Positions 6,617-42,302 of a stretch of 64,000 nt of DNA are shown here, piece by piece. Location of the stretch: contig NZ_BMMT01000010.1 in NCBI RefSeq assembly GCF_014646075.1, positions 62,001 to 126,000 of the forward strand, in the 5' to 3' direction. The translations under genes and the position numbers were made by a program. Within the stretch, counting starts at the first letter, position 1. Each line of letters opens with the position of its first letter. This DNA is from Saccharopolyspora thermophila. GTDB taxonomy: Bacteria; Actinomycetota; Actinomycetes; Mycobacteriales; Pseudonocardiaceae. The notes below the pieces were generated by a model. It was not told the origin of the DNA. It did not search any database and saw only the letters and a program-made list of their open reading frames with translations.

Positions 6617-7123
6617 ATGACCGCGACGATCACAACCGTCACCCCCGAGGACGTCCGGCAGTTCCTGTACCGGGAGGCCCGCCTGCTCGATGACCGCGAG
6701 TTCGAGCAGTGGCTGGAGTGCTACCACCCGGACGTCGAGTTCTGGATGCCCGCGTGGGATGACGACGACGAGCTGACCACCGACCCGCAGACCGAGATCT
6801 CGCTGATCTACTACGCCAACCGCGGTGGCCTGGAGGACCGGGTGTTCCGCATCCGCACCGACCGGTCAGCGGCCACCAGCATCCCGGAGCCGCGCACCGG
6901 GCACAACATCACCAACGTCGAGATCACCGACCAGCGCGACGGCGTGGTGGACGTGCGGTTCAACTGGTTCACGCTCTACTACCGCTACCACAACGTCGAC
7001 ACCTACTTCGGCACGTCGTTCTACACGATCGACTTCTCCGGGGAGCGGCCGCTGATCACCCGCAAGCGCGTGGTGCTGAAGAACGACTACGTCCACCACG
7101 TCGTGGACATCTACCACGTGTGA
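6617..7123 (+). CDS. benB: Benzoate 1,2-dioxygenase, small (beta) subunit
   Basis: A 168-residue ring-hydroxylating dioxygenase beta subunit with the NTF2-like cone fold. It has the normal length and family segments such as FLYREARLLDDREFEQWLECYHPDVEFW near the start and RKRVVLKND near the end. It has a structural role in the alpha3-beta3 oxygenase. AAAGGAG precedes the ATG. It lies between benA and benC. Confidence 0.93.
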   Translation: MTATITTVTPEDVRQFLYREARLLDDREFEQWLECYHPDVEFWMPAWDDDDELTTDPQTEISLIYYANRGGLEDRVFRIRTDRSAATSIPEPRTGHNITNVEITDQRDGVVDVRFNWFTLYYRYHNVDTYFGTSFYTIDFSGERPLITRKRVVLKNDYVHHVVDIYHV

Positions 7124-7133
7124 GGGGGTGGCG

Positions 7134-8153
7134 ATGAGCTATCAAGTGGCGTTGAGCTTCGAGGACGGCGTGACCCGGTTCGTCACCTGCGGTCCGACGG
7201 AGACGGTGGCCGAGGCATCGTACCGGTCGCGGATCAACATCCCGCTGGACTGCCGGGACGGGGCGTGCGGCACCTGCAAGGCGCGGTGCGTGTCCGGGAC
7301 CTACGACGGCGGCGACTACATCGAGGACGCGCTCACCGACGAGGAGGCCGCCGCGGGCTACGCGCTGCCGTGCCAGATGGTGCCGCACAGCGACCTGGTG
7401 CTGGAGATCCCGGCCACCTCGCAGTTCGCCAAGACCGGCGCGGCCGCGCACACCGGCTCGATCAGCGAACTCCGGCGGCTGTCGGCGACCACCGTGGCGT
7501 TCTCGGTGGAGCTGGACGACCGCGACCAGCTGGCGTTCCTGCCCGGGCAGTACGTCAACGTGGCGGTGCCGGGGACGGACGCGACCCGCTCGTACTCCTT
7601 CAGCAGCGGCCCAGCGGACAAGGCCGTGTCGTTCCTGGTCCGGCTCACCGAGGGCGGCGTGATGTCGCAGTACCTGCGGGACCGGGCGGAGGTCGGCGAC
7701 CGGGTGGAGTTCACCGGGCCGCTGGGCAGCTTCTTCCTGCGCGACCTGATCCGGCCCGCGCTGCTGCTGGCCGGTGGCACCGGGCTGGCGCCGCTGTTGT
7801 CCATGCTGGAGCGCCTGACGGAGGTGGAGGTCGCCCACCCGGTGCACCTGGTGTACGGGGTCAGCACCGACGCCGACCTCGTGGAGCTGGACAGGCTGCG
7901 GGACTACGCCGAGCGGATCTCGCGGTTCACCTTCGACCACTGCGTGGCCGATCCGGCCAGCACGGCCGAGCACAAGGGCTACGTGACGAGCCTGCTCGGT
8001 CCGCAGCACCTGCATGACGGCGACGTGGACGTCTACCTGTGCGGGCCCCCTGCCATGGTCGAGGCGGTGCGCGGGCAGCTGCGCGACACGGGCGTGAACC
8101 CGGCGAACTTCTACACCGAGAAGTTCACCGTCGCCGCGGAGGCGGGGCGGTGA
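7134..8153 (+). CDS. benC: Benzoate dioxygenase reductase (2Fe-2S/FAD)
   Basis: A 339-residue one-component reductase passing electrons from NADH to BenAB. The plant-type ferredoxin domain is N-terminal, with C40, C45, C48 and a fourth Cys in ALPCQM. An FAD domain follows (RSYSFSS) and then a NAD domain (GGTGLAPLLSML, CGPPAMVEAV). The ATG at 7134 is preferred to the GTG at 7128 because the GAGGGGG site is then well spaced. The stop overlaps the benD start in GTGA. Confidence 0.92.
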   Translation: MSYQVALSFEDGVTRFVTCGPTETVAEASYRSRINIPLDCRDGACGTCKARCVSGTYDGGDYIEDALTDEEAAAGYALPCQMVPHSDLVLEIPATSQFAKTGAAAHTGSISELRRLSATTVAFSVELDDRDQLAFLPGQYVNVAVPGTDATRSYSFSSGPADKAVSFLVRLTEGGVMSQYLRDRAEVGDRVEFTGPLGSFFLRDLIRPALLLAGGTGLAPLLSMLERLTEVEVAHPVHLVYGVSTDADLVELDRLRDYAERISRFTFDHCVADPASTAEHKGYVTSLLGPQHLHDGDVDVYLCGPPAMVEAVRGQLRDTGVNPANFYTEKFTVAAEAGR

Positions 8154-8960: not shown

Positions 8961-11606
8961 ATGACCGGGCAGCGCGCCGAGCTGGTCGGCCGACAGCGCG
9001 AGTTGGCCGACCTGGAGCGGCTGCTGGCCTGCGCCCCCGGCGTGGTGCTGGTGACCGGACCGGCCGGGATCGGGAAGACGACCACGGTCGAGCACTTCCT
9101 GTCCCGGCGCGGGCAGCTGCGCGTGGCGCGGGCCAGCGGGCTGCCGTGGGAACGCGGCACGGCCCTGGGCGTGGTGGACCAGTTGCTGCGCGGCTCACCG
9201 CTGCCGCGGGACGTGGCGGGGCTGCTGGCCTGGTGCGCGGAAGGTCCGGGGCTCGTGGTGGTCGACGACGCGCAGTGGGCGGACCTCGAGTCGCTGCAGG
9301 CACTGGTGTCGACCCACCAGCGGCTGGTGTCGGAGCGGGTGCTGATCGTCCTGGTGGCGCGCGAGCCCGAGCTGCCAGTGTCGGTGCCGCGCAACGCCGT
9401 CGTGCGCATCGGGCCGCTGACGCCCGCTGACGTGCGCACGCTGGCGATGCTGCACGCCGGGCGGGACCTGAGCGAACCCACCGCGCACGAGCTCGCCGCG
9501 CACACCGGTGGGAATCCGCGGCACGTGCGGGATTTGCTCGACGAACTGCCCGCGCAGACCTGGCAGGAGTGGACCGCCGTGCTGCCCGCCCCGCGGGCGG
9601 TGGCCGACGAGGTGTCGCGCGCGCTGCGGTCCTGCGCCGCGACCACGCGGGCGTTCGTGGAGGCCGCCGCGGTGCTGGGGCGCACGGTGCCGGTGGCCGC
9701 GGCCGCGCGTCTGGCGGGCATCGAGGATCCCGTCACCGCGTTGCACGAGGCGTGCGAGCGCGGTCTGGTCGCCACGGTGCCGGGACGCGGGCTGTTGGTG
9801 CTGTCGTTCCCGGACCCGCTGGTGCACGCCGCGGTCTACACCGGACTGCCGCCGCTGGTGCGGCACCGGTTGCACGGCGACGCCGCAGAGTTCGCCGAGG
9901 ACGAGGCCGACCGCCTGCACCACCTCGTGGCGCGGACGCCCGCACCGGACGCCGCGTTGGCCGCCGAGCTCGACGCCTTCGCCGTCGAGCAGGCCGCGCT
10001 GGGCGCGTGGGCCGTGGCCGGGCGGGCACTCATCGACGCCAGCAGGCTCAGCCCGGACCGCGCCGACCGCGAGCGCCGGCTGGTGCGGGCGGTCGACGCC
10101 CTGGTCGGCGCGGGCGACCTGGGGCGGGCGAGCGCGTTCTCGGCGCAGATCGAGAGCCTGCCGACCAGCCCGCTGCGCGACGCGGTGCTGGCCTACCTGG
10201 CGATCCAGCGGGGCCGCCCGACCGAGGCTGAGCTGCTGCTGACCCGCGCGTGGGAGCGGTGCCGCCCGAGCGGCGAACCGGAGGTCGCGGCGCTGATCTG
10301 CCAGCGGCGGGTGCTGCACTCGCTGAGCCGCTGGCACGGCCCGGATCTGGTGGCCTGGGGCCGCCGGGCGGTGGCGCTGGCCGATCCGCAGGATCCGTCG
10401 GCGGTGGAGTCCGAGGCGATCATGGGGCTGGGTCTGGCGGCGACCGGACGGATTGAGCAGGCCCGGGAGACCTATCGGGACGTGGTCGCGCGGGTCAGCC
10501 GCGGCGCGCAGTCGCAGCGGGTGCAGATGGGCAAGGGCTGGTTGGACTTCGCGCTGGACGACCCGCAGACCGCGCGGCGGGAGCTGGAGATCGCGGTGCC
10601 CACACAGTTCCGGATGGGGTCGATCCGGATCTCGCTGTGGGCGCAGGCGTGGTTGGCGCGCACCGAGTTCGCGCTCGGCTCGTGGGACGAGGCGCTGCAG
10701 ACCGTGGTCCGGGCGGCGGTGCAGCTGGCCGAGACCGGGCTGGAACTGGTCCGGCCGCTGGTGCACTGGACGGGCGCCCAGATCAACGCGCTGCGGGGAG
10801 ATCTCGAGGCTGCGCAGGCGCATCTGCAGCAGGCGTCGGCGTCGGCGCACAGCTACGAGGTCATGCTGATCCCCGCGTGCCTGGCGCGCGCCCAGTGCGC
10901 GGAGGCGCAGTCCGACTACGAGGGTGTGCTGCGTGCCCTGGAGCCGGTGGTGCAGCTGTGGCCGCGGCAGGGCGTCGACGAACCCGGTTTCTGGCCGTGG
11001 CAGGACGTGTACGGCAACGCGCTGGTGATGACCAACCGCGTCGCCGAGGCCGACGAGTTCCTGCGCCCGCACGAGGACCTGGCCGCTGACCGCGGGCACC
11101 GCTCGACCCGGGCTCGGCTGGGTTACGTGCGGGGCCGGATCTGTGCGGCGCAGGGCGATCTCGACGCGGCCAAGGAGTCCTTCGAGGCCGCGCTCGCGCA
11201 CCTGCGGACGCTGCCGCTGCCCTACGAACGCGCCCGCGTGCACTTCGCCTACGGGCAGACGCTGCGCCGGGCCGGGAAGCGGCGGGACGCCGATGTCGTA
11301 CTGCGGCGCGCCCGCGACGGCTTCGCCGCCCTCGGCGCCACCACGTACGTCGAGCGCTGCGAACGGGAGTTGAAGGCCGGTGGGCTGCGCCCGAAGCGTT
11401 CCGCGCTGGACCTCACCGAGCTGACGCCGCAGGAGCAGGCGGTGACCAAGCTGGTGGCGGCGGGTATGACGAACAAGCAGGTCGCGGTGGAGCTGTTCAT
11501 CTCGGTGAAGACGGTGCAGTTCCACCTGACCCGCATCTACGCCAAGCTCGGCATCCGTTCCCGCAGCGAGCTGGCGGCCCGCTTCCACGCCGACCCGACT
11601 ACTTGA
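8961..11606 (+). CDS. benR: LuxR/LAL-family ATP-binding regulator, probable BenR
   Basis: An 881-residue regulator of the large ATP-binding LuxR (LAL) type. The Walker A motif GPAGIGKT is at 33-40, the Walker B LVVVDDAQWAD near 100, then a long helical TPR-like middle, and a C-terminal LuxR HTH (LTPQEQAVTKLVAAGMTNKQ, then VSIKTVQFHL-like helices and SRSELAARF). It starts 28 bases after benD. In corynebacteria and relatives, BenR is a LAL regulator in this same position, so activation of benABCD in response to benzoate is inferred. The stop codon lies inside the left arm of the next operator. Confidence 0.78.
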   Translation: MTGQRAELVGRQRELADLERLLACAPGVVLVTGPAGIGKTTTVEHFLSRRGQLRVARASGLPWERGTALGVVDQLLRGSPLPRDVAGLLAWCAEGPGLVVVDDAQWADLESLQALVSTHQRLVSERVLIVLVAREPELPVSVPRNAVVRIGPLTPADVRTLAMLHAGRDLSEPTAHELAAHTGGNPRHVRDLLDELPAQTWQEWTAVLPAPRAVADEVSRALRSCAATTRAFVEAAAVLGRTVPVAAAARLAGIEDPVTALHEACERGLVATVPGRGLLVLSFPDPLVHAAVYTGLPPLVRHRLHGDAAEFAEDEADRLHHLVARTPAPDAALAAELDAFAVEQAALGAWAVAGRALIDASRLSPDRADRERRLVRAVDALVGAGDLGRASAFSAQIESLPTSPLRDAVLAYLAIQRGRPTEAELLLTRAWERCRPSGEPEVAALICQRRVLHSLSRWHGPDLVAWGRRAVALADPQDPSAVESEAIMGLGLAATGRIEQARETYRDVVARVSRGAQSQRVQMGKGWLDFALDDPQTARRELEIAVPTQFRMGSIRISLWAQAWLARTEFALGSWDEALQTVVRAAVQLAETGLELVRPLVHWTGAQINALRGDLEAAQAHLQQASASAHSYEVMLIPACLARAQCAEAQSDYEGVLRALEPVVQLWPRQGVDEPGFWPWQDVYGNALVMTNRVAEADEFLRPHEDLAADRGHRSTRARLGYVRGRICAAQGDLDAAKESFEAALAHLRTLPLPYERARVHFAYGQTLRRAGKRRDADVVLRRARDGFAALGATTYVERCERELKAGGLRPKRSALDLTELTPQEQAVTKLVAAGMTNKQVAVELFISVKTVQFHLTRIYAKLGIRSRSELAARFHADPTT

Positions 11607-11647
11607 CATCAGTTGGCAAGTACTTGCTATCCTGTGTCAAGTAGTCG
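11596..11647 (+). promoter_or_regulatory. 52-bp symmetric operator with four CAAGTA/TACTTG half-sites
   Basis: Perfect 13-bp inverted arms, CGACTACTTGACA (11596-11608) and TGTCAAGTAGTCG (11635-11647), surround the perfect 12-bp palindrome GCAAGTACTTGC (11616-11627). All share one centre at 11621.5. This gives four half-sites of CAAGTA or TACTTG. A TTGACA at 11604 and a TATCCT at 11628 (19-base spacing) could be a promoter embedded in it. It lies 17 bases before the HTH gene, which suggests autoregulation. Confidence 0.75.
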
Positions 11648-11664
11648 ACGCGGGAGGGTGCGGC

Positions 11665-12132
11665 ATGCCGGACGAGCACGAGGAGTTGGCCGAACACCTG
11701 CGGCGACTGGTGTCGAACCGGCTGCTGGACCCGCTGACCATCCTGCTGGAATCCGAGGCGGCCACCGCGACCCTGCAGCGGCGCGTCGACCGGGCCGTCG
11801 GCGAGTGGGCAGCGCAGCTGCTCGGCCCCGACGACGAGCGCGCGGTGCATTTGTGCGCTCGCCTGCTGGCGGCGCTCTACCCCGACGACGGCCCGTTCAA
11901 CCCGCCCGAAACGTGGTGGCGGACGCCGCTGGGGCAGGTCGTCGCACGCCGCGTCGGACACCCCGGCACCGACCACGTCCCCTACGCCACCGCCGGAGCG
12001 ATGCTCGGCATTACCCGGCAGGGCGTGCATGACCTCGTCAACCGCAACAAGCTCGCGCGTCACCCGGACGGCGGGGTGACCACCGCGTCGATCCGCGCGC
12101 GCCTGGCACGAACCTCCGGAGGCTCCCGTTGA
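11665..12132 (+). CDS. Small helix-turn-helix DNA-binding protein
   Basis: A 155-residue protein. Residues 1-100 are mostly helical and not recognised. The C-terminal part (about 108-150) is a short HTH resembling excisionase/MerR-like heads: YATAGAMLGITRQGVHDLVN, then KLARHPDGGVTTASIRARL. GGGAGG precedes the ATG at 11665. The gene sits directly behind the 52-bp symmetric operator, and its stop overlaps the start of the downstream hydrolase (TTGA), so the two form one transcription and translation unit. The likely role is a repressor of its own operon. The signal sensed is unknown. Confidence 0.7.
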   Translation: MPDEHEELAEHLRRLVSNRLLDPLTILLESEAATATLQRRVDRAVGEWAAQLLGPDDERAVHLCARLLAALYPDDGPFNPPETWWRTPLGQVVARRVGHPGTDHVPYATAGAMLGITRQGVHDLVNRNKLARHPDGGVTTASIRARLARTSGGSR

Positions 12133-13049
12133 CCGATCTCTTCGTCAAATCCGCCGACGTCGAGATAGCCGTCCGCGACCACGGCGGCGACGGCCCACCC
12201 GTGCTGCTGCTGCACGGCGCGGGCGGAAACCTGCTGGCATGGGAGGGATTCGCGCCGCTGCTCACCGAGCGCCACCGCGTGCTGGCCGTCGACCTGCGCG
12301 GGCACGGGCTGTCCGGCGACGGTCCGTGGAGCTGGGCGGCGGTGCTCGACGACCTCGACGCCGTGGTCGACCAGCTCGACCTGCCCCGCCCGGCGGTGGT
12401 GGGCCACTCGCTCGGCGGCATGCTCGCCGCGATGTGGGCGGTGCGGCACCCGGACTGCCCCGCCGCGATCAGCCTCGACGGGCACCGCGCCGCGGCCACC
12501 CACCCGGACAACTACGCCGACCTGCCCCGCGACCGCGTCGAGGAGCAGTTGGCGCAGCTGCGCGAGGTCTTCGCCGTGCAGATCCCGGCCGCGGCCCAGC
12601 CGATGGACGACGACCAGGTCGCCGCCCTGCTGGAACAGCAGCGGGCCTTCGCCGCGCACCAGGGCATCGACCCGCAGCTGTGGGTCGAGTCCACCCGACG
12701 CAGCCTGATCGTCCATAACGGACAGACGTGGCGGCGGCCGGGCGCCCCGGTGCTGGAGTTCCTGCACGGCGCACCGGAGTTCGCCGACGCGCTACCGGTC
12801 TTCCGGCAGGTCCCGGGCCCGTTCCTGCTCGTCCTGGCCACCCGCCTGGCCGGTTTCCCGCCCCAGTTCGACGACCTGATGCGGGCCCTGCACGCGGGCC
12901 TGCGCCGCGACCTCGCCGACCTCACCGCCCAGCACCCGACCGCGGTGGTCCGCGAGCTCGACGCCAGCCACGGCATGGTCTTCGAAAAGCCCGCCGAGGT
13001 CGCTGCCATCGTCCTCGACTTCCTCCACCAACAACCCGCCGCTGCCTGA
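12129..13049 (+). CDS. Alpha/beta hydrolase, coupled to the HTH regulator
   Basis: A 306-residue alpha/beta hydrolase. The oxyanion segment LLLHGAGGN is near residue 30, the nucleophile elbow GHSLGG near 97, and the C-terminal catalytic His is in ELDASHGMVFEKP. The start is a TTG overlapping the upstream stop. No later start with a better ribosome site was evident. Substrate unknown. Coupling to a self-regulated HTH suggests that expression is induced by its substrate or a related compound. Confidence 0.75.
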   Translation: MTDLFVKSADVEIAVRDHGGDGPPVLLLHGAGGNLLAWEGFAPLLTERHRVLAVDLRGHGLSGDGPWSWAAVLDDLDAVVDQLDLPRPAVVGHSLGGMLAAMWAVRHPDCPAAISLDGHRAAATHPDNYADLPRDRVEEQLAQLREVFAVQIPAAAQPMDDDQVAALLEQQRAFAAHQGIDPQLWVESTRRSLIVHNGQTWRRPGAPVLEFLHGAPEFADALPVFRQVPGPFLLVLATRLAGFPPQFDDLMRALHAGLRRDLADLTAQHPTAVVRELDASHGMVFEKPAEVAAIVLDFLHQQPAAA

Positions 13050-13149: not shown

Positions 13150-13935
13150 GTGGAGACCGGCACCGCCGCGCTGAACGACATCGAGGTCCGCTACCGCGCG
13201 GCCGGGAGCGGTCCGGCCGTGGTCCTCGTGCACGGCCTCGGCCTGGATCACACGAGTTGGCGGCGCCAGCAGCGGGAACTCACCGAGTACCGCACGTTCG
13301 CCTACGACGTTCGCGGCCACGGCGCGACCACGCTGGGCCACGCCGACGGAACCCTGCGCCAGCTGCGCGACGACCTGATCGCCTTCCTCACCGAGGTTTC
13401 GGGGCCGGCGGTGTGCGTCGGCTTCTCGCTCGGCGGCACGGTCGTGCTCTCCGCCGCAGCGGCCCGCCCGGACCTGGTGACCGGTGTGGTGGCGATCGCC
13501 ACCTCGTCGGTGGTGAGCCGGGTGGCGGCCGAGTTCTTCCGCAGGCGAGCCGACCAGGCCCGCACCGGCAACCTGCGCGACGCGCTGCGCGAGGACACCG
13601 TGGCGATGGTCACCAATCCCGCCGTCGACGTGGACGCGCTGGTCGAACGACGAATCGCAGCCGTTGGCGACGGCCGCGGATTCGCCAACGCCGCAACGGC
13701 CATGGCCGGTCTCCGAGCCGACCCCCTCACCCCGGAGCTGGCCAACGTCAGGCAACCGGTGACGGTCATCGGCGCGGCCGATGATGCCCTCTGCCCCCGC
13801 AAGGCGGCGGACATCCTGCTCGAAGCCCTCCCGAACGCCGCGTACCGCGAGATCCCGGCGTGCGGCCATCTGATGAGCGCCGACAACCCGACGGCGCTCA
13901 CCGAAGAACTGCGCACCGCCCTGCACCGCAGGTGA
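13150..13935 (+). CDS. Alpha/beta hydrolase, possible 3-oxoadipate enol-lactonase
   Basis: A 261-residue alpha/beta hydrolase with LVHGLGLDHTSW, the nucleophile elbow GFSLGG, an acid in GAADDALCP and the catalytic His in PACGHLMSADNP. Length and motifs fit the 3-oxoadipate enol-lactone hydrolase group (CatD/PcaD). That is the one step after CatC missing from the cat operon, so it may complete the path to 3-oxoadipate. Many other hydrolases look alike and the gene is outside the cat operon, so this is only a suggestion. GTG start. Confidence 0.65.
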   Translation: METGTAALNDIEVRYRAAGSGPAVVLVHGLGLDHTSWRRQQRELTEYRTFAYDVRGHGATTLGHADGTLRQLRDDLIAFLTEVSGPAVCVGFSLGGTVVLSAAAARPDLVTGVVAIATSSVVSRVAAEFFRRRADQARTGNLRDALREDTVAMVTNPAVDVDALVERRIAAVGDGRGFANAATAMAGLRADPLTPELANVRQPVTVIGAADDALCPRKAADILLEALPNAAYREIPACGHLMSADNPTALTEELRTALHRR

Positions 13936-42212: not shown

Positions 42213-42252
42213 ACCGGGATACCGGATGCCCGGTTGCGCCACCGGGAGAACT

Positions 42253-42296
42253 CCACAGCGATGCCCACCTGCTCTGGCAGGTGGGCATCGCTGTGG
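42253..42296. terminator. Perfect 19-bp bidirectional terminator hairpin
   Basis: Arms 42253-42271 and 42278-42296 are perfect complements (CCACAGCGATGCCCACCTG and its reverse complement) with the loop CTCTGG. It separates the convergent SRPBCC gene (+) from the semialdehyde dehydrogenase gene (-). Confidence 0.85.
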
Positions 42297-42302
42297 GTGG
42301 CC

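Follow-up and report, generated by a model that had tools for sequence, protein, structure and literature searches.

Several described systems resemble, in fold or in outline, the one treated here. BldC consists of one short domain and recognises direct repeats. Proteins of the MerR family carry an N-terminal winged helix-turn-helix (HTH) domain, and their operator lies within a spacer of 19–20 nucleotides (nt). Autoregulated repressors of the TetR/MarR type are encoded beside a detoxifying enzyme, co-directionally or divergently, and their operator lies over the promoter. The subject of this study is a palindromic region at 11596–11647, followed by the genes for a 155 amino-acid (aa) regulator and an alpha/beta hydrolase, in a 64,000-nt stretch of the Saccharopolyspora thermophila genome (positions 62,001–126,000 of contig NZ_BMMT01000010.1; "the window" denotes this whole stretch). 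Euo of Chlamydiae is a transcription factor with an excisionase-like winged HTH domain; excerpts of the source describe it as acting globally, on more than 100 promoters, through the consensus box TTAAAAACAAATTTT, and give one proposed extended site that contains CAAGTACTTG (PMC4989314). For WblI, CTTGACGC repeats have been proposed, as an excerpt of the source has it (PMC5373594). A search of open-licence PMC papers found no description of the present protein or its cassette.

We consider it likely that the region is an autorepressed one-component switch, comprising an operator–promoter, a small regulator and a partner enzyme that removes the inducer. The DNA element at its centre has the following features (no strand is assigned to the composite palindrome or to the repeats):

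11596–11647: composite palindrome, 52 bp, 21 of 26 pairs matching
11596–11608: arm CGACTACTTGACA, 13 bp, sharing the centre 11621.5 with the other arm and the inner palindrome
11635–11647: arm TGTCAAGTAGTCG, 13 bp, centre 11621.5
11616–11627: inner palindrome GCAAGTACTTGC, 12 bp, centre 11621.5
11600–11605, 11617–11622, 11621–11626 and 11638–11643: four TACTTG/CAAGTA half-sites
11600–11622: inverted repeat 1, TACTTGAC-N7-GGCAAGTA, 15 of 16 consensus positions, containing the predicted −35 element
11621–11643: inverted repeat 2, TACTTGCT-N7-GTCAAGTA, 14 of 16 consensus positions, covering the predicted −10 element and transcription start

The original prediction described a single nested 52-bp palindrome around one centre. 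The arms, the inner palindrome, the four half-sites and the common centre are all present, but the symmetry is incomplete, with only 21 of 26 pairs (81%) matching. The region is the top-scoring 52-mer of the window, in which TACTTG occurs 12 times against a shuffle mean of 3.07. The symmetry by itself is moderately unusual, because the runner-up 52-mer (42249–42300) reaches 20 of 26 pairs, and the weight of the argument rests on comparative data.

What relatives conserve is a 23-bp inverted repeat, TACTTGAC-N7-GTCAAGTA, which occurs singly or in tandem; the proposal that the 52-bp palindrome forms one operator unit is thus not borne out. The two repeats of the window overlap by 2 bp and have centres 21 bp apart, and the large palindrome is the consequence of this tandem arrangement of two 23-bp sites with centres two helical turns apart. 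A total of 131 loci were compared, 68 from the window's family and 63 from two further families. Excluded from the counts were duplicates (L048, L063, L066, L067), a Sphingomonas locus of 33% identity (L035), partial or broken loci (L074, L075, L087, L175), weak matches (L088, L089) and partial matches (G031, G849); the counts likewise omit L182, from Nonomuraea, and the loci on viral contigs. The prediction had proposed to ask whether a TACTTG/CAAGTA palindrome precedes each homologue, and this holds in 128 of the 131 loci across the three actinobacterial families, each with a site matching at least 12 of 16 positions upstream of the regulator gene. Paired sites lie exactly 21 bp apart in 109 loci; in eight loci the distance between the two sites is 38, 41 or 22 bp, and a single site is present in 11.

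The consensus derives from sequences upstream of the same 68 loci that were later scored, so that their fit is partly by construction, and the real test lies in the spacing and shuffle controls. With a spacing of 7, at least 14 of 16 positions match in 67 of the 68 upstream regions, whereas over spacings 2–6 and 8–13 a single case reaches 14 (at spacing 9). None of 680 dinucleotide shuffles reaches 14 of 16 (best 13), and 0.4% of the shuffled regions reach 12. Apart from a few, the loci of the other two families (63 in all) played no part in deriving the consensus. Single-repeat loci (L073, L078, L081, L082, L084) lack the inner CAAGTACTTG. Such loci show one repeat to be the unit, with the inner CAAGTACTTG arising from tandem packing, and the inner palindrome is ruled out as the conserved element. 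In Nonomuraea gerenzanensis, the tandem sites make a perfect 42-bp palindrome.

The genes served by this candidate operator are as follows:

11665–12132, + strand: 155-aa regulator gene; AlphaFold2 model with a mean predicted local distance difference test (pLDDT) score of 94.3
11665–11958, + strand: N-terminal helical domain (residues 1–98), a putative dimerisation or sensor part, with no clear PDB match
11962–12120, + strand: C-terminal winged HTH (residues 100–152), which superposes structurally on Xis and BldC
12129–13049, + strand: partner alpha/beta hydrolase, 306 aa, TTG start, with an inferred S94-D117-H281 triad

The comparison strongly supports the view that the site acts as operator for a small HTH regulator and a hydrolase, with the site in 128 and a neighbouring hydrolase in 102 of the 131 loci. 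The two genes overlap, as had been noted, and do so by 4 nt, the TGA of the regulator gene overlapping the TTG start at 12129.

In the AlphaFold2 model, helices across residues 4–96 are followed by a winged HTH. Residues 99–152 align with Pukovnik Xis (4j2n; Z 8.4, root-mean-square deviation [rmsd] 1.3, 50 residues aligned) and residues 102–151 with BldC (6ama; Z 7.1, rmsd 2.5, 50 aligned), at 16–20% sequence identity. The fold is thus Xis/BldC-like, with Z at the edge of the tool's "common" class. The N-terminal domain, modelled alone (pLDDT 93.8), has no Foldseek match at E ≤ 0.001, and its best VIA-align Z is 5.0, to a receptor; the missing structural match is no proof of a new fold. A weak full-length match was obtained to TniQ (7u5e; Z 5.5, rmsd 5.4, 131 aligned), and a profile search of PDB sequences with the regulator gave nothing convincing. 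The Pfam model HTH_17 matches 12 of the 68 family members at E ≤ 0.01. No Pfam or NCBIfam model fits the regulator family.

A TetR or MftR label was rejected. The HTH is C-terminal in the model, where TetR proteins combine an N-terminal TetR HTH with a helical ligand domain; the TetR_C_14 match spans 39 residues that run into the winged HTH, and is read as a cross-match; and NCBIfam MftR scores well under its cut-off (14.1 against 224.9).

The predicted expression signals, in relation to the repeats, are the following:

11603–11608, + strand: predicted −35 element TTGACA, inside the first half-site
11628–11633, + strand: predicted −10 element TATCCT, separated from the predicted −35 by a 19-nt spacer
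11652–11658, + strand: Shine-Dalgarno-like GGGAGGG

A candidate promoter inside the palindrome had been proposed. The TTGACA/TATCCT pair is present, but with a spacer of 19 nt, and a scan restricted to spacers of 16–18 nt found no promoter in this region. TTGAC[AG] followed by [TG]ANNNT at 17–19 nt occurs in 119 of the 131 loci (counted without a shuffle control), the spacer being 17 nt in 60, 19 nt in 57 and 18 nt in two. On these predictions, repeat 1 covers the −35 element and the spacer, and repeat 2 covers the −10 element and the start. In 45 of the 131 loci, the sequence of the last half-site is GTCAAGTG, with a GTG that shares the reading frame of the regulator gene; all 45 have TANNNT-N7-GTG, as would be expected if the message were leaderless. 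The window differs from these loci in having GTA at that place and an ATG start with GGGAGGG upstream. An operator half-site that doubles as a start codon would, if true, be an unusually compact design.

The long spacer raises the alternative of a MerR-type activator, which would bind over the 19-nt spacer and, upon ligand binding, realign the −35 and −10 elements. The winged HTH does resemble MerR-superfamily domains (for example MtaN, Z 5.1), and 57 promoters have the 19-nt spacer; however, the 17-nt spacer is found in 60, the single-repeat loci named above lack a spacer-centred CAAGTACTTG, the sites span the −35, −10 and start in a repressor-like manner, and the HTH is C-terminal. Activation of this type is therefore regarded as unlikely, and autorepression is preferred.

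The distribution of the site follows that of the regulator. The 155-aa protein is encoded once in the window's own genome, and the pattern TACTTG-N11-CAAGTA with up to one mismatch finds only the two window sites there, against 17 matches of a reversed control pattern. Regulator matches occur in 70 of the 297 genomes of the window's family, including five of the 22 of its own genus, so the distribution of the cassette is patchy; in two further families of the same class they occur in 62 of 250 and four of 22 genomes. The exact half-site pattern is present in 58 of the 297 family genomes, namely in 46 of the 70 with the regulator as against 12 of the 227 without it (Fisher p 3.7e-25, uncorrected for phylogeny), and in 41 of the 46 genomes having both it is found upstream of the regulator gene at a distance of no more than 300 bp. 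The reversed control pattern is found in many family genomes, so that stray matches of the pattern are expected. In three regulator-less genomes (G054, G100, G109), the match sits inside a longer hairpin. Full consensus repeats distant from the regulator gene are also seen in three regulator-carrying genomes (position 1501 of L107 and of L108, and G014:C1:3849718); these are possibly additional targets or chance occurrences.

These data bear on a second alternative, in which the palindrome is recognised by a different regulator of the genome, with the 155-aa protein as no more than its target. TetR-type genes do lie beside some loci (for example L008, L019, L025, L039, L163), and binding by the 155-aa protein is itself a prediction; but in three families, and beside neighbours of several kinds, the site accompanies the 155-aa gene, and no further copy of the site occurs in the window's own genome. 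We judge this alternative distinctly improbable.

The cassette, with tandem site and hydrolase, is also present in an 11.85-Mb record of Nonomuraea gerenzanensis (Streptosporangiaceae), and this suggests that Streptosporangiaceae is the second family carrying it. As the single match bearing on a plasmid origin is this chromosome-sized record, such an origin was rejected. A phage origin was likewise rejected. Six relatives on viral contigs (IMG/VR, L176–L181) have the recognition helix SKQAVAKM or SKQAAAKM in place of TRQGVHDL, and show no site and no hydrolase in the available, partly short, DNA (L178–L180 offer just 483–933 bases downstream). Among them, L178 and L179 resemble each other, and L181 matches only residues 80–147. 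PHROGs gave no match.

Upstream lies a further gene:

8961–11606, + strand: LuxR-type AAA/TPR regulator gene (benR), with its stop inside the operator

The left arm overlaps the benR stop, as had been noted, the stop codon at 11604–11606 lying inside the arm. This gene is taken not to be part of the cassette. The genes upstream of the cassette at three loci of the same genus (L002–L004) differ from benR, and, with no second site in the window's own genome, a benR regulon is ruled out. Genes matching the benB and benC equivalogs (benzoate 1,2-dioxygenase; 6617–8153) precede the LuxR-type gene.

A role of the palindrome as RNA, in a terminator or leader hairpin after benR, is very improbable: as RNA the stretch does form a good fold (−35.5 kcal/mol, z −4.34, equalled by none of 200 shuffles), but it has no terminator match, the upstream genes vary among the relatives read, and the left half coincides with the −35 in the 45 loci of leaderless type, where it would be outside the gene's own transcript.

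The hydrolase assignment rests on a match to Abhydrolase_1 (E 6.4e-26). A homologue adjoins the regulator gene in 102 of the 131 loci, on the same strand in 97 and divergently in five (L046, L049, L050, L052, L059), each of which has two sites between the genes. Across the 102 aligned neighbours, S94 and D117 are conserved in all and H281 in 101, which points to a S94-D117-H281 catalytic triad, with the acid assignment inferred. Eighteen loci, all of them in the second family, have an aldo-keto reductase in place of the hydrolase (identified with Pfam in L086). Other neighbours are an epimerase-like protein (L129), a pyridoxal phosphate (PLP) enzyme (L173, and L172 by similar sequence) and a transporter (L174). 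The operator is kept while the enzyme changes, and this fits a stand-alone regulator module. A second alpha/beta hydrolase gene (13150–13935) follows the cassette in the window; because a similar gene follows in L003 and L004 of the same genus, it may be part of a longer block in this genus.

A toxin–antitoxin-like pair, in which an autoregulated DNA-binding protein neutralises the enzyme, would explain why the two genes overlap and why their operator is tandem and looks autoregulatory, but is scarcely credible given this exchange of partners, the regulators that have neither enzyme beside them and the absence of a PADLOC match for the regulator (the hydrolase has one weak TAP-like match).

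Several observations weigh against an autorepressed switch of this design. The structural match of the HTH is modest (highest Z 8.4; lowest Foldseek E 0.41, non-significant), and Pfam TetR_C_14 scores above its gathering cut-off in the window protein (26.1 against 22.7 bits, residues 85–123) and matches 28 of the 68 family members at E ≤ 0.01. BldC recognises direct repeats, but the sites conserved here are inverted ones. Three loci (L071, L157, L163) have no upstream site reaching 12 of 16, and 11 of the 131 have neither hydrolase nor aldo-keto reductase adjacent, those other than the epimerase-like, PLP-enzyme and transporter loci having no clear partner. The exact pattern occurs in the 12 regulator-less genomes mentioned above, and in five genomes it lies solely away from the regulator gene (G019, G055, G068, G096, G108). 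Furthermore, the evidence does not separate repression from activation.

In the mechanism that we propose for the autorepressed switch, the 155-aa protein, as a dimer and via its C-terminal winged HTH, probably binds each TACTTGAC-N7-GTCAAGTA repeat. Two dimers would sit side by side on one helix face (centres 21 bp, or about two turns, apart), covering the promoter from the −35 element to the transcription start and repressing their own operon. The probable role of the N-terminal helical domain is to sense a small molecule akin to the substrate of the enzyme; in the presence of this ligand, regulator and hydrolase would be made, and the hydrolase, through S94-D117-H281, would remove the compound, so that the operon would close again.

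The wider proposition is evenly balanced: that the cassette represents an actinobacterial regulator family, one-component and undescribed, in which a new sensor domain at the N-terminus is joined to a winged HTH of the Xis/BldC type at the C-terminus, with a fixed two-repeat code, an exchangeable enzyme and, in many members, a leaderless start codon in the last half-site. If true, Pseudonocardiaceae and a second family, probably Streptosporangiaceae, would contain a family of regulators whose operator code can be predicted, so that the DNA site could be found by pattern, the target enzyme would be the neighbour and the inducer would be related to the substrate of that enzyme. Regulator–enzyme pairs of this kind could be put to use as biosensors and could aid the search for what anonymous hydrolases and reductases act on.

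Compared with known systems, the regulator is closest in fold to the small winged-HTH proteins BldC and Xis, on which its C-terminal domain superposes; it differs in its length of 155 aa, with an additional N-terminal helical domain of about 98 residues, and in the inverted-repeat symmetry of its conserved site. Euo has in common with it the excisionase-like winged HTH, and the proposed extended Euo site shares CAAGTACTTG with positions 11617–11626 of the window; the common 10-mer may be due to chance, and Euo, as excerpted, acts at more than 100 promoters where the window's own genome has one site pair (PMC4989314). MerR activators share a related winged HTH and, in some loci, the 19-nt spacer, but the present HTH is at the C-terminus with nothing after it, and 17-nt spacers are equally common. 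The TetR/MarR-type repressors are similar in outline, with an operator over the promoter and a regulator and enzyme in either orientation; they differ in that the HTH of the window protein is C-terminal and Xis/BldC-like, with no N-terminal TetR HTH in the model. A regulator–enzyme pair with an autoregulatory operator is of an already known kind, and what is new is the domain arrangement, the 21-bp tandem code, the exchange of partners and the start codon inside the operator.

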